DNA of 64,000 nt. Source: Nocardioides caldifontis. GTDB taxonomy: Bacteria > Actinomycetota > Actinomycetes > Propionibacteriales > Nocardioidaceae. The notes below the pieces were generated by a model. That model was given only the letters and a program-made list of their open reading frames with translations, was not told the origin of the DNA and made no database searches. Shown here piece after piece: positions 28,581 through 34,797 of this stretch (position 1 is the first letter of the stretch; each line of letters begins with the position of its first letter). The position numbers were made by a program, and so were the translations under genes. The stretch is from positions 372,001 through 436,000 of the forward strand of contig NZ_VHIB01000008.1 in the NCBI RefSeq assembly GCF_008087345.1. Direction: 5' to 3'.

Positions 28581-29735
28581 TCAACGCAGCCCGGTCGGGC
28601 GCTGCAGCGCGAGCCGGAGGAGCCGGTCGACCAGGTCGGGGTAGGCGAGGCCGGAGGCCGCCCACATCCGCGGGAACATCGAGGTCGGCGTGAACCCCGG
28701 CATCGTGTTGATCTCGTTGACCGCCAGCCGGCCGTCGGCGAGGAGGAAGAAGTCGACCCGGGCGAGCCCCTCGCAGGACAGCGCCTCGAAGGCCGCGACC
28801 GAGAGCGCCCGCACCTCGTCGGCGACCGTGGGGTCGAGGTCGGCCGGCACGTCGAGCCGGGTGGACTCCTCGGGGAGGTACTTCGCGGCGAAGTCGTAGA
28901 AGTCGTGGTCGCCCTGGACGACGATCTCCGCCACCACGCTGGCCTCGGGCAGCTCGCCGCCGAGGCTCTCCAGCACCCCGCACTCGATCTCGCGGGCGCC
29001 CTCCCCGGCGGCCGCCTCGACGACCACCTTGGGGTCCCAGCGCCGCGCCTCCTCGACGGCGGCGTCGAGCTCGTCGCGCGACCGGACCTTGCTGATGCCG
29101 ATCGAGGAGCCACCCCGGCAGGGCTTGACGAAGACCGGGTAGCCGAGCGCGTCGACCTCCGCGCGGCAGGCGTCGGGGTCGGAGCGCCACTCGCGGTCGG
29201 TGATGACGGCGTAGGGCAGCACCGGCAGCCCGGCGGACTCGAAGACCACCTTCATGTAGTGCTTGTCCATGCCGACCGCCGAGGCGAGCACGCCGGCCCC
29301 GACGTAGCGGACGTCGGCGATCTCGAGCAGCCCCTGGATGGTGCCGTCCTCGCCGAAGGGGCCGTGCAGCACGGGGAAGACGACGTCGACCCGGCCGAGC
29401 GTGGCGGGCACGTCGCCCTGCGGGTGGACGACCAGCGAGCCGGCGAGCCCGTCCTGGGCGATGGAGAGCACCGGGAGGGTCCCGTCGACCTCCGGCAGCT
29501 TGTCGGGGTCCTCGATCGCCAGCCGCGAGGTGTCACCGTCCTCGAGCACCCAGCGGCCGTCCTTCGCGATGCCGATGGGCACCACGTCGTACTTCTGCGG
29601 GTCGATGGAGGCGAGCACGCTCCCCGCGGTGACGCACGAGATGGCGTGCTCGCTGGAGCGGCCACCGAAGAGCACCGCCACGCGGGGCCTGACGGGACCG
29701 GTGCCGGCGTCGTCCGGGGCACTGAGGTCGCTCAT
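28581..29735 (-). CDS. ddl: D-alanine--D-alanine ligase
   Basis: ATP-grasp ligase (384 aa) making the D-Ala-D-Ala dipeptide of peptidoglycan. The N-terminal VAVLFGGRSSEHAIS (about 19-33), KPCRGGSSIGISKV loop (about 198-211) and C-terminal LARVDFFL plus INTMPGFTPTSMFP (metal and phosphate binding) are diagnostic. The C-terminal Tyr/Phe specificity residues look like an ordinary D-Ala-D-Ala enzyme, not a D-lactate one, but that is judged by eye. It converges on the DUF3515 gene and diverges from the PLP-lyase gene, 33 bases away. Confidence 0.95.
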   Translation of the reverse strand: MSDLSAPDDAGTGPVRPRVAVLFGGRSSEHAISCVTAGSVLASIDPQKYDVVPIGIAKDGRWVLEDGDTSRLAIEDPDKLPEVDGTLPVLSIAQDGLAGSLVVHPQGDVPATLGRVDVVFPVLHGPFGEDGTIQGLLEIADVRYVGAGVLASAVGMDKHYMKVVFESAGLPVLPYAVITDREWRSDPDACRAEVDALGYPVFVKPCRGGSSIGISKVRSRDELDAAVEEARRWDPKVVVEAAAGEGAREIECGVLESLGGELPEASVVAEIVVQGDHDFYDFAAKYLPEESTRLDVPADLDPTVADEVRALSVAAFEALSCEGLARVDFFLLADGRLAVNEINTMPGFTPTSMFPRMWAASGLAYPDLVDRLLRLALQRPTGLR

Positions 29736-29768
29736 GGTGAGCCGACCCTACCGGCCTACGCTGGCGGC

Positions 29769-30884
29769 ATGTCGCTGCCCACGCCCCCCGACCGCCCCTC
29801 CGACGAGCCTCGCTGGTCGCCCGCCACGCTGGCGGTGACGGTCGGCCGGCCGCCGCACGAGCCCGACCAGCCGCTGAACTCCCCGGTGACGATGGCCTCG
29901 ACGTACGTCGCGGGCGGCGACCTGGAGTACGGCCGCTACGCGAACCCCACGTGGACGGCGTTCGAGGAGGCCCTGGGCGCGCTCGAGGGCGGCCGGTGCC
30001 TGGCCTTCGCCAGCGGGCTCGCCACCGCCGCGACGATCCTCGACCTCGTCGGCAACGGGGCCACCGTGGTGGCCCCGCGGCACGCCTACAACGGCACCGT
30101 GATGCAGCTGGCCGAGCTCGAGGCCCGGGGCCGGCTGACCGCCCGCCTCGTCGACGTCACCGACCTCGACGCGGTGGTGAAGGCCTGCGACGACGCGGCT
30201 CTGGTCTGGCTCGAGTCCCCGACGAACCCCGCGCTGGAGGTCGTCGACCTCGAGGCGGTGATCGAGGCGGCGCACCGGGCCGGGGCGTACGTCGTCGTCG
30301 ACAACACCTTCGCCACGCCGCTGCTCCAGCGCCCGCTCGAGCTCGGGGCCGACCTCGTGGTGCACTCCGCCACGAAGTTCATCGCCGGCCACAGCGACGT
30401 GCTGATGGGCGCGGTGGTCACCCGGTCCGACGAGCTGTTCACCGTCCTCAAGCAGCGCCGCGACCTCGTCGGCAACGCTCCCGGCCCGTTCGAGGCGTGG
30501 CTGGCGCTCCGCGGGCTGCGCACCCTGCACGTCCGGCTGGAGCGTGCCCAGGCCAATGCCGCCGAGCTCGCGCGCCGCCTCGGCGACCACCCGGCCATCG
30601 AGGAGGTCCGCTACCCCGGGTTCGGCGCGATCATCTCCGTGGTGGTCGCCCAGGGCGCCCTGGCCGCCGACCTGCTCACCCGCTCGACGCGGCTGTGGGT
30701 CCACGCCACCAGCCTCGGTGGGGTCGAGTCGACGTTCGAGCGGCGCCGCCGCTGGAAGACCGAGCCGGTCACGATCCCCGACGGGCTGGTGCGGCTCTCG
30801 GTCGGCATCGAGGACGTCGACGACCTGTGGGCCGACCTCGCCGGGGCGCTGGAGGCCCTCCCCCGGCCGTCGACCGGCGGCTGA
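29769..30884 (+). CDS. Cystathionine gamma-synthase/lyase family PLP enzyme
   Basis: A 371-residue PLP enzyme of the Cys/Met metabolism family (MetB, MetC, MGL and relatives). The PLP phosphate site YGRYANPT (about 54-61), the substrate loop ASGLATAAT, DNTFATPLLQRPLELGAD (about 178-195), the Schiff-base Lys at 203 in SATKFIAGHSD, and the C-terminal RLSVGIED are all present. It starts at ATG 29769, directly before the conserved N-terminal region; the long upstream open frame is antisense to ddl. Which reaction it performs (gamma-synthase, gamma- or beta-lyase) cannot be decided here. The heme monooxygenase gene starts 19 bases downstream. Confidence 0.9.
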   Translation: MSLPTPPDRPSDEPRWSPATLAVTVGRPPHEPDQPLNSPVTMASTYVAGGDLEYGRYANPTWTAFEEALGALEGGRCLAFASGLATAATILDLVGNGATVVAPRHAYNGTVMQLAELEARGRLTARLVDVTDLDAVVKACDDAALVWLESPTNPALEVVDLEAVIEAAHRAGAYVVVDNTFATPLLQRPLELGADLVVHSATKFIAGHSDVLMGAVVTRSDELFTVLKQRRDLVGNAPGPFEAWLALRGLRTLHVRLERAQANAAELARRLGDHPAIEEVRYPGFGAIISVVVAQGALAADLLTRSTRLWVHATSLGGVESTFERRRRWKTEPVTIPDGLVRLSVGIEDVDDLWADLAGALEALPRPSTGG

Positions 30885-30903
30885 CCCTGCCAGGATCTGC
30901 TCC

Positions 30904-31305
30904 ATGAGCGTCATCAAGATCAACGCGATCACCGTCGACCCCTCCAGCGGCGACGAGCTCGCCCACCGGTTCGCCGCCCGTGCCGGCGCGGTCGACGACC
31001 AGGACGGCTTCGAGGGGTTCGAGCTCCTCAAGCCCACCGACGACCGGACCACCTGGCTGGTGATCACCCGGTGGCGGGACGAGGCCGCGTTCGAGGCGTG
31101 GGTCGACGGCCCCGCGTTCGCGAAGGGGCACCGCGGCGAGGGCGCCGGGGAGGGCCACGGCCATGGTCACGGTCACGGTCACGGCCATGGTCACGGCCAT
31201 GGCCACGGTCATGGTCATGAGGGCGGCGACGCGCCGCGTCCCGTCGGCGTCAGCAGCGAGCTGTGGTCCTACGTGGTGGCCGGAGGCTCCGCCCCGCAGG
31301 GCTGA
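30904..31305 (+). CDS. MhuD-like heme-degrading monooxygenase with Gly-His repeat insert
   Basis: A 133-residue ABM-fold protein closely resembling mycobacterial MhuD, which opens heme and releases iron. The N-terminal VIKINAITV, the helix with RFAARAGAV, the GFEGFELLKP strand, the WLVITRW strand and AFEAWVDGPAFAKGH line up with MhuD in order; His76 falls at the position of the heme-ligand His. MhuD is about 105 aa. The extra length here is an insert right after that helix, holding 11 consecutive Gly-His pairs (residues 84-105), before the last strand SSELWSYVV. Such a His run would bind Ni, Zn, Fe or heme. ATG 30904 is the only sensible start; cotranscription with the PLP enzyme is likely. 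Confidence 0.88.
   Translation: MSVIKINAITVDPSSGDELAHRFAARAGAVDDQDGFEGFELLKPTDDRTTWLVITRWRDEAAFEAWVDGPAFAKGHRGEGAGEGHGHGHGHGHGHGHGHGHGHGHEGGDAPRPVGVSSELWSYVVAGGSAPQG
31153..31218 (+). repeat. 11 tandem Gly-His codon pairs
   Basis: Eleven consecutive 6-base units of GGY-CAY encode (Gly-His)11 inside the MhuD-like gene. Synonymous codons are mixed (GGC/GGT and CAC/CAT), so the repeat is not a fresh slippage product; the amino-acid pattern appears to be maintained. Confidence 0.95.
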
Positions 31306-31312
31306 ACCGTCG

Positions 31313-32314
31313 TCAGTCGCGCTCGTGCTTGGTCTCGCGGCTGAGGAAGCTGTCCATCATCTCCTGCGTCGTCATCTCGCCGGTGATCACGGCGTGCACC
31401 GCCTCGGTGATCGGCGCGTAGATGTCGTGGCGCTGCGCGAGGGCGAGCAGCGAGCCGCACGACTTCACACCCTCCGCGACCTGGCGGGTCGAGGCGGTGA
31501 TCTCCTCGGTGGTCATCCCCTGCCCGAGCTTCTCGCCGAAGGTGCGGTTGCGGGACAGCGGTGAGGAGCAGGTGGCCACGAGGTCGCCGAGTCCGGCGAG
31601 CCCCATGAGCGTCAGCGGGTCGGCGCCCAGCTTCATCGCCAGCCGCGCGGTCTCCGCCAGCCCGCGGGTGATCAGCGAAGCCGTGGTGTTGTCGCCGAAC
31701 CCGAGCCCGACGGCCATCCCCACGGCCAGCGCGATGACGTTCTTGTAGGCGCCGCCGAGCTCGCACCCGACGACGTCGACGCTGGAGTACGGGCGGAAGT
31801 TGGGGCCGTGCAGCCACTCGCGGAGCCGGGCGGCGACCGCCTCCTCCTGGCAGGCGACGACGCTGGCGGCCGGCTCACGGTTGGCGATCTCCCGCGCCAG
31901 GTTGGGTCCGGACAGCACCGCGATCCGGTCGGGGCCGGCGCCGGTGACCTCCGCGATCACCTCGCTCATCCGCTCGAGGGTGCCGAGCTCGACGCCCTTC
32001 ATCAGCGAGAGCATCACGGCGTCCCGGGGCACGACCTCGGCCCAGTCCTGGAGGTTCTCCCGCAGCCGCTGGGACGGGACCGCGAGCACGACGAGCCCGG
32101 CGCCGTCGGCGGCCTCGGCGGGGTCGTGGGTGGCCCGGATCGTCCCGGGCAGCTCGATCCCCGGCAGGTAGTCGGGGTTCTCGTGCTTCTCCGTGATCGT
32201 CGCGCAGAGGTCCTCGCGGCGCCCCCAGATCGTCACGTCGTGGCCGGCGTCCGCGAGCACCAGCGAGAACGCCGTGCCCCACGAACCTGCACCGAAGACG
32301 GCGGCGTGGGTCAT
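31313..32314 (-). CDS. gpsA: Glycerol-3-phosphate dehydrogenase [NAD(P)+]
   Basis: GpsA (333 aa) reduces dihydroxyacetone phosphate to sn-glycerol-3-phosphate for phospholipid synthesis. The Rossmann motif [13 protein letters not shown] is at residues 5-17; [11 protein letters not shown] (about 137-147), the catalytic Lys in [12 protein letters not shown] (about 188-199) and [12 protein letters not shown] match. AGGAGGAG precedes ATG 32314. It lies 25 bases downstream of the plsC-type acyltransferase, which uses its product pathway, so the two form a lipid-synthesis pair. Confidence 0.95.
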
Positions 32315-34011: not shown

Positions 34012-34797
34012 TCAGGACTTCTTGGCCGTGCGCTTGCTGGTGCTCTTCGAGGCCGACTTCTTCGCCGGCGCCTTCTTGGCGGTGGTCTTGCTCGCGGTCG
34101 ACTTGCTGGCCGACTTCTTCGCGGCGGTCGACTTGCTCGCCGAGGTCTTGCTGGCCGTCGACTTGGCCGTCGACTTCTTCGCCGCGGTCGACTTGCTCGC
34201 GGTGGACTTCGCCGGCGAGGACTTCTTGGCCGCCGTCGACTTGGCCGTCGACTTCTTCGCCGCGGTCGACTTGCTCGCGGTGGACTTGGCCGGCGAGGAC
34301 TTCTTCGCCGCGGTCGACTTGCTGGCGGTCGACTTGCTGGTCGACTTCTTCGCCGCCGTCGACTTGCTCGCCGTCGACGACTTCTTCGCGGTGGACCGCG
34401 AGCCGGTCGCCTTCTTGGCCGCCGCAGCACCGGTGGACGCAGCAGCCGACGCGGCCTGCCGTGCGGGGGCGGTCGCCTTCTTGGCGAGGTCGCCGGCCTT
34501 CGGCAGCTTCGGCAGCTTCTTGGCGCCGGAGACGACGTTCTTCAGGTCCGCACCCGCGGTGAACTTCGGGATGGCGGTCTTCTTGGCCTTGATGCGCTCG
34601 CCCGTGCGCGGATTGCGCACCCACCGGGACTCGCGCACCCGCTTCTCGAACGAGCCGAACCCGGTGATCGCCACCTTCTCGCCCCGGGCGACCTCGCGGG
34701 TGATCACGTCGAGCACGGACTCGAGCGCATGCTGCGCCTGCTTCCGGTTCCCTTCGTAGCGTGTCGACAGAGCGTCGATCAGCTGAGTCTTGTTCAC
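34012..34797 (-). CDS. hup: HU-family DNA-binding protein with long Lys/Ser/Thr/Ala C-terminal tail
   Basis: A two-part nucleoid protein of 261 aa. Residues 1-92 are a standard HU domain: MNKTQLIDALSTRY start, VAITGFGSFEKRVR and the DNA-contacting arm with RNPRTGE at 61-67. From about residue 130 to the end the sequence is a degenerate array of SKSTAAKK, SPAKSTASK and similar units, histone H1-like and unstructured. Mycobacterial HupB and Streptomyces HupS have the same layout; the tail binds DNA and is a known site of acetylation in HupB. GTG 34797 follows AAAGGGAAG. Tail length probably varies between strains because of the repeats. Confidence 0.94.
   Translation of the reverse strand: MNKTQLIDALSTRYEGNRKQAQHALESVLDVITREVARGEKVAITGFGSFEKRVRESRWVRNPRTGERIKAKKTAIPKFTAGADLKNVVSGAKKLPKLPKAGDLAKKATAPARQAASAAASTGAAAAKKATGSRSTAKKSSTASKSTAAKKSTSKSTASKSTAAKKSSPAKSTASKSTAAKKSTAKSTAAKKSSPAKSTASKSTAAKKSTAKSTASKTSASKSTAAKKSASKSTASKTTAKKAPAKKSASKSTSKRTAKKS
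34015..34410 (-). repeat. Degenerate repeats encoding the HU tail
   Basis: Repeated units of about 24-30 bases (for example ttcttcgccgcggtcgactt on the plus strand) encode the SKSTAAKK-type tail. Several units are near-identical at DNA level, so expansion or contraction by recombination is plausible. Confidence 0.85.

Follow-up and report, generated by a model that had tools for sequence, protein, structure and literature searches.

By its sequence, the protein encoded at positions 30904 to 31305 of the window (the whole 64,000-nucleotide stretch of Nocardioides caldifontis DNA analysed here) is a relative of IsdG and MhuD, with a flexible arm of eleven Gly-His pairs directly behind its predicted heme ligand. 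We tentatively favor the reading that this arm, with its eleven histidines on an IsdG/MhuD-like ABM protein, is a low-affinity heme- or metal-binding tether at the mouth of the pocket, although its chances fall somewhat short of even. We infer that, inside the cell, this arm binds heme or metal to the benefit of the enzyme.

The core is readily placed. Pfam ABM (PF03992) spans residues 3-77 with an E-value of 3.3e-20 and 72.5 bits against a gathering score of 23.1, which makes the protein a member of that family. Its best sequence matches in the PDB are MhuD entries, at about 4e-19 over residues 1-79. All 55 aligned sequences agree at Asn7, Arg22, Phe23, Arg26, Trp66 and His76, positions that include the Asn/Trp/His triad of IsdG-like heme-degrading ABM proteins. 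The spacing from the tryptophan to the ligand histidine is 10, not 9 as in the MhuD/HmuQ type, and the MhuD-like rows of the alignment need a one-residue gap between the two residues. Against the listed NCBIfam models for heme oxygenases, the protein stays far below every curated cut-off (NF053649, 34.1 bits vs 130; NF009840, 31.8 vs 119; NF009839, 30.6 vs 115), those of the MhuD/HmuQ-type equivalogs included. Because of these scores and the IsdG-like spacing, we file the protein as IsdG/MhuD-like and not as a strict MhuD ortholog. An earlier note on this DNA had called it an MhuD-like heme monooxygenase. The IsdG/MhuD-like core holds, given the MhuD matches and Asn7/Trp66/His76, while a strict MhuD assignment does not; the ligand number predicted there, His76, fits the Trp+10 position of IsdG.

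In the AlphaFold2 model, a monomer computed from 55 sequences, the blocks of residues 1-70 average pLDDT 89-97, a helix at 70-76 terminates at His76 and the last strand lies at 115-124. The fold is ferredoxin-like alpha+beta, and MhuD is the top Foldseek match (3hx9, E 1.1e-8). By VIA-align, MhuD 4nl5 reaches Z 14.9 (2.2 Å, 100 residues), TT1380, which is uncharacterised, 14.1, and IsdI 13.9, so that MhuD and IsdG proteins are among the nearest structures, though TT1380 is tied with them. ABM folds with other substrates (SnoaB, ActVA-Orf6 and LsrG) also reach 11-13 against the model. Since the scores of MhuD and TT1380 are tied, fold alone is no proof of heme chemistry. We infer that the core binds and cleaves heme and releases iron. 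The gene has a single close copy in its own genome, the remaining matches being weak or lying on the Gly-His run, and three more ABM proteins there exceed the Pfam cut-off. A canonical heme oxygenase is also encoded in the genome (PF01126, 158 bits; L219, C2:13574-14215), and the window protein is therefore not the sole candidate heme-degrader. As this enzyme is present and a search of the genome for HtaA heme uptake gave no match, heme degradation for uptake is not established as the role.

In the list of open reading frames the gene starts with an ATG at 30904 and its stop codon ends at 31305 (Table 1). The 11-fold Gly-His repeat reported for this frame is borne out: the run is exactly (GH)11, occupies residues 84-105 and begins 8 residues past His76, with a flexible 7-residue spacer ahead of the first pair. 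Its loop is large by any measure. There are 36 residues between His76 and Pro113; model residues 2-132 pair with MhuD 2-101 in the structural alignment, leaving about 31 extra; and the loop is 23 residues longer, net, than the 13 residues usual in the subfamily, with loop boundaries that lie one or two residues apart between the two definitions used. The previous figure of about 35 residues for the insert is slightly high when measured against MhuD. Mean pLDDT values of 51, 55 and 57 across residues 81-110 point to disorder, and the model roots the arm at residue 77, next to the ligand. A flexible insert directly behind the ligand helix, as had been proposed, is thus what the model predicts. 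With a pLDDT of about 51-57, (GH)11 resembles the flexible, His-rich, low-complexity stretches of metal-binding arms. Matches to Pfam TrAA12 and KRTAP and to NCBIfam nickel/cobalt and UreE models are weak and under cut-off, fall on the Gly-His repeat or low-complexity sequence close to it, and do not reflect homology.

Table 1. Features of the ABM gene and its neighbors, in window coordinates.
Feature	Position	Strand	Evidence
Whole gene, IsdG/MhuD-like ABM protein with Gly-His arm, 133 aa	30904..31305	+	Open reading frame; Pfam ABM 3.3e-20; MhuD 4e-19
ABM core, residues 1-76, ending in the predicted heme ligand	30904..31131	+	AlphaFold2 pLDDT; helix 70-76
Asn7 codon, predicted distal-pocket residue	30922..30924	+	Invariant in 55/55 aligned; role from IsdG/MhuD literature
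Trp66 codon	31099..31101	+	Invariant in 55/55 aligned sequences
His76 codon, predicted proximal heme ligand, Trp66+10	31129..31131	+	Trp+10 His in 76/76 in-family subfamily members; invariant column
Expanded loop, residues 77-112 (usual in subfamily, 13)	31132..31239	+	Loop comparison; low pLDDT at 81-110
(Gly-His)11 run, eleven GGYCAY units, residues 84-105	31153..31218	+	Sequence read
C-terminal strand PVGVSSELWSYVVAGG and tail, residues 113-133	31240..31302	+	Modelled strand 115-124; flank conserved in alignment
Cys/Met-metabolism PLP enzyme, upstream	29769..30884	+	Nearest NCBIfam model cystathionine gamma-lyase, below cut-off
gpsA (glycerol-3-phosphate dehydrogenase), convergent neighbor, context only	31313..32314	-	

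The gene lies 19 bases behind that of the PLP enzyme, and the two possibly form a single transcript. CGS-like, ddl and gpsA genes lie near the ABM gene in 3/3 same-genus loci and in 0/87 other loci tested, whose flanks are short (mostly 1500 bases); a conserved neighborhood as a clue to function was rejected on this restriction to the genus. Among ten named loci read no shared partner gene was found, with 0 predicted genes in L168, L128 and L144 and a single distant one in L139. A scan of 29600-31500 returned 0 promoters and 0 terminators, using consensus types that suit GC-rich actinobacteria poorly. An iron-regulator box was dropped as a reading after 0 matches in the window at three or fewer mismatches to the one consensus tried. 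Further along, at 34012-34797 on the minus strand, the window encodes an HU-like DNA-binding protein, read by eye, with a long Lys/Ser/Thr/Ala repeat tail.

At the DNA level the eleven units comprise four GGTCAC, three GGCCAT, two GGCCAC and two GGTCAT, with variation at third positions only (first and second codon positions vary in 0/44). Four unit types require at least three substitutions, all of them synonymous in the window copy, and this modestly supports purifying selection on the peptide. Runs of equal units are also present (three GGTCAC, two GGTCAT) and show that local duplication or slippage contributed. The claim that mixed synonymous codons betray selection is accordingly only partly right, as every difference between units is synonymous and the runs of equal units mark local duplication. 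CAT and GGT are strongly over-used at 31153-31218 compared with the neighboring genes: CAT makes up 5/11 of the His codons in the run vs 1/48 in six window genes, GGT 6/11 of the Gly codons vs 15/243, and in the other His-rich loops of the subfamily only one of 58 His codons is CAT. The run is unlikely to be an assembly artefact, because it sits well within a contig of 598,566 bases, its units are non-identical and both other same-genus carriers have GHGH in the same loop.

The family search covered 341 genomes, 202 of them with a match at 1e-12. The 76 strong matches, which define the window's subfamily (to about 2.5e-20 in the place list), were all read; the other 126, weaker matches were called MhuD-like by subtraction, 14 of them having been read (L081-L094). 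Among the matches listed, each matched genome shows one ABM match (L005-L094 read). Since the two subfamilies meet in no listed genome, they seem to stand in for each other, which suggests that the Trp+10 window type and the Trp+9 MhuD type replace or exclude one another. Within the window's subfamily, 63 of the 76 in-family members have no loop histidine and keep both flanks, and 13 have two or more. Relatives without the repeat and with both flanks, named beforehand as a sign against the proposal, therefore exist; the arm is dispensable and not general, and a conserved arm of the family is ruled out. The gene occurs in three of five genomes of the genus, where the other two carriers have GHGH, that is, two loop histidines each vs eleven in the window, a big length difference among close relatives (genus g1). 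The expectation of a repeat fixed in position and variable in length agrees with the data, as the position of the loop is constant and its length varies in several lineages.

Long His-rich loops are widespread beyond these genomes. The named-genome scan used the best 80 of at least 410 confirmed relatives and so leans to close relatives; matches at 1e-24 were found in 28 of 394 genomes of the class and 17 of 396 of the phylum, and 25 outside the family were taken. The loop analysis began with 195 sequences; once 14 with Trp+9 and a truncated one had been set aside, 180 remained, of which 152 are unique. A histidine at Trp+10 in 152/152 is thus a product of the filter, and the asparagine test over this set accepts Asn at residues 6-9. 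Loops of at least 16 residues (37/152) contain 133 His in 1125 residues (11.8%); each has at least one and 32 have two or more. The 115 loops of 15 residues or fewer contain 8 His in 1331 residues, with any histidine in 8 of them. Neither the 37 long nor the 115 short loops contain Cys or Met. A reading of the arm as unique to this species is ruled out by these 37 long loops. For comparison, the background level of His is 2.23%, taken over 292 proteins predicted from the window and from the named loci. Thirty-six Gly-rich 25-residue segments of nearby predicted proteins have 2.0% His, with two or more in 5/36; these genes were called with a basic codon score, for which six genes of the window served as the training set, and likely include false ones (L134), and the ABM row L118 leaked into a 20-residue control and, as far as the rows show, not into this one.

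The histidines are reached through different units. Besides the window, two other genomes of the family have Gly-His pairs; a sister genus has GEHAGHGHGG, an acidimicrobial clade (GGHP)n and a phylum-level group GGHGS. Three MAG records titled Bifidobacterium breve or Acidobacteria (L154, L191 and L130) hold (GGHP)n proteins that group with the acidimicrobial ones, and their titles are probably wrong. All 13 clades of long loops, drawn by hand from a quick-search tree of 94 columns with 83/146 inner branches open, exceed 2.23% His (means 4.0-19.9%). The label of two or more His changes 12 times on the tree vs 29.4 for shuffled labels, and starred branches force only 3 changes on this poorly resolved 94-column tree. 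Several origins are therefore likely, with three or more forced. At the weak end, 5/37 long loops contain just one His, and several clades average no more than 4-5%. The presence of unlike His-rich loops in separate clades favors selection for His over drift, and because such loops recur it is a stronger functional argument than the codons.

How such an arm might work can be outlined from known heme and metal binders. In MhuD, PMC8801480 describes His75 as the ligand and a second heme that replaces the first. Its authors suggest that His78, which lies three residues further along in a flexible loop, could transiently bind an incoming heme; the arm lies in this same loop. According to PMC5372734, plasma histidine-rich glycoprotein (HRG) has His-rich repeats to which heme, Zn, Cu and Ni bind, and metals displace heme; the arm would therefore be expected to bind both heme and divalent metals. 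The variable loop behind the proximal ligand would have grown into a disordered Gly-His arm whose 11 histidines most likely bind heme and/or divalent metal weakly and many-fold. It would thereby raise the local heme concentration at the pocket mouth, and its histidines could briefly coordinate a heme on its way in, before His76 takes it over or during that step. The seven-residue spacer would let the first of them reach the pocket, and the arm may also hold iron set free on turnover. A more daring version is a heme fishing line that arose convergently in several lineages of actinobacteria, in which the loop arm would capture heme, pass it along its length to His76 and keep the released iron close. 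This would be an expanded form of the loop ligation suggested for MhuD His78, and we regard it as rather unlikely. Counted against the tether are the 63/76 members without loop histidine, the duplicated hexamers, the heme oxygenase elsewhere in the genome, the lack of an HtaA match there, the tied Z-scores, the poorly resolved tree, the weak end of the His counts and the Gly-His runs on other proteins of the genome that are not evidently metal proteins.

The main rival, ranked next after the heme/metal tether and unlikely by itself, is neutral or nearly neutral growth of a tolerant loop. GC-rich hexamers would expand by slippage or unequal exchange, and the histidines would be a by-product of the GHGH seed of the genus. 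This accounts for the majority of relatives that have no loop histidine (63/76), the GHGH of both same-genus carriers, the spread from 2 to 11 among close relatives and the equal-unit runs of the window copy. It is harder to reconcile with loop His at about sixfold the level of Gly-rich segments in nearby proteins, with histidines reached via unlike units in unlike clades, and with 0/44 variable non-third positions despite the three or more substitutions that the four unit types need. Less probable again is a general metal arm that serves as a buffer or sensor for Zn, Ni, Cu or Co, or uses metal to tune the enzyme, with no handling of heme. The His/Gly composition free of Cys and Met would suit it, as would (GH)n on a cation-efflux transporter and the GroEL of the same genome, the several divalent metals that bind HRG repeats and displace heme (PMC5372734), and the His-rich linker of H. 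volcanii PitA, which binds Co beside an ABM-like heme-binding domain (PMC5746218). It leaves the choice of a loop directly behind the heme ligand unexplained, however; the neighborhood is without metal genes (CGS-like, ddl and gpsA in the genus), and the window has no iron-box-like site at the mismatch limit given above, for the one consensus tried.

Most doubtful of all is a core that acts on another substrate and degrades no heme, in which case the arm would be unrelated to heme. The low scores against the NCBIfam heme-oxygenase models listed (at best 34.1 bits vs 130), the Z-scores of 11-13 for ABM proteins with other substrates and the canonical heme oxygenase elsewhere in the genome are consistent with such a core. 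On the other hand, Asn7/Trp66/His76 are kept in 55/55 sequences and the Trp+10 His in the filter-selected 152/152, MhuD comes first both by sequence and by Foldseek, and the window-type and MhuD-like subfamilies are single per matched genome listed, as if replacing each other.

Compared with characterized systems, the window protein is closest to MhuD (Rv3592, Mycobacterium tuberculosis) by sequence and Foldseek, sharing Asn7, Arg22, Phe23, Arg26, Trp66 and the ligand His. MhuD likewise has a flexible loop with a further His behind the ligand (PMC8801480). The window protein differs in having its ligand at Trp+10 and not Trp+9 (the MhuD side read from 14 MhuD-like family members, with His75 from the same paper), a C-terminal strand of the ELWSY type, and a loop that is longer by about 31 residues and bears 11 His. 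Staphylococcus aureus IsdG and IsdI share the Asn, Trp and His triad, and IsdG has a Trp67-His77 spacing of 10; structure alignments with these proteins show only 16-18% identity (IsdI Z 13.9). A Gly-His arm is absent from the PDB entries matched by sequence, for which the alignments covered were those of MhuD. In Haloferax volcanii PitA, composed of a ChdC domain, a His-rich linker and an ABM-like domain, a flexible His-rich stretch likewise lies beside a heme-holding ABM-like domain, and the linker binds Co (PMC5746218). There, by contrast, the stretch serves as a connection between two domains, other residues take the place of the triad Asn and Trp, and the 41-residue insert of the ABM-like domain sits between beta3 and alpha2, not behind the ligand. 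Metal binding by flexible Gly/His(/Pro) repeats is known from plasma HRG, whose repeats also bind heme (PMC5372734), and from the mycobacterial GroEL1 tail (PMC10170517). The acidimicrobial (GGHP)n loops look most like GHHPH of HRG. Neither HRG nor GroEL1 is attached to an ABM active site, which limits the comparison to analogy. A His-rich insert behind the ligand of an IsdG/MhuD protein was not found in the open-licence literature searched on this subject. The core is known, and the nearest precedent for the arm is the PitA linker, at another place. If the arm binds heme or iron, the 63 armless and 13 armed in-family relatives would offer natural pairs for testing heme delivery and the fate of iron in IsdG-type enzymes. 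The gain of His by the same active-site loop, via different units in separate clades, would then be a strong test bed for low-complexity arms.

Gly-His runs also occur elsewhere in the same genome. A four-Gly-His-codon pattern gives 19 overlapping matches at five places, one of them the window gene, against one match for a control pattern. L096 and L095 encode a GroEL with a (GH)5 C-terminal tail and a cation-efflux (CDF) transporter starting MGHGHGHGH. His-rich ends of CDF transporters are tied to metal. The His-rich tail of GroEL1 has been linked to metal as well (PMC10170517). Two of the four other Gly-His places (CDF and GroEL) are settings that the literature ties to metal. The other two are an MFS (DHA2-like) exporter with (GH)7 at its C-terminus (L002:112-1569, plus strand) and a protein whose N-terminus bears a Gly-His run and, behind it, a stretch rich in C and HH (L110:1477-3024, plus strand); at the thresholds applied, neither Pfam nor NCBIfam gave a match for this protein. 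With runs on an exporter of this type and on a protein lacking a family match, Gly-His runs in this genome are therefore not confined to evident metal proteins.
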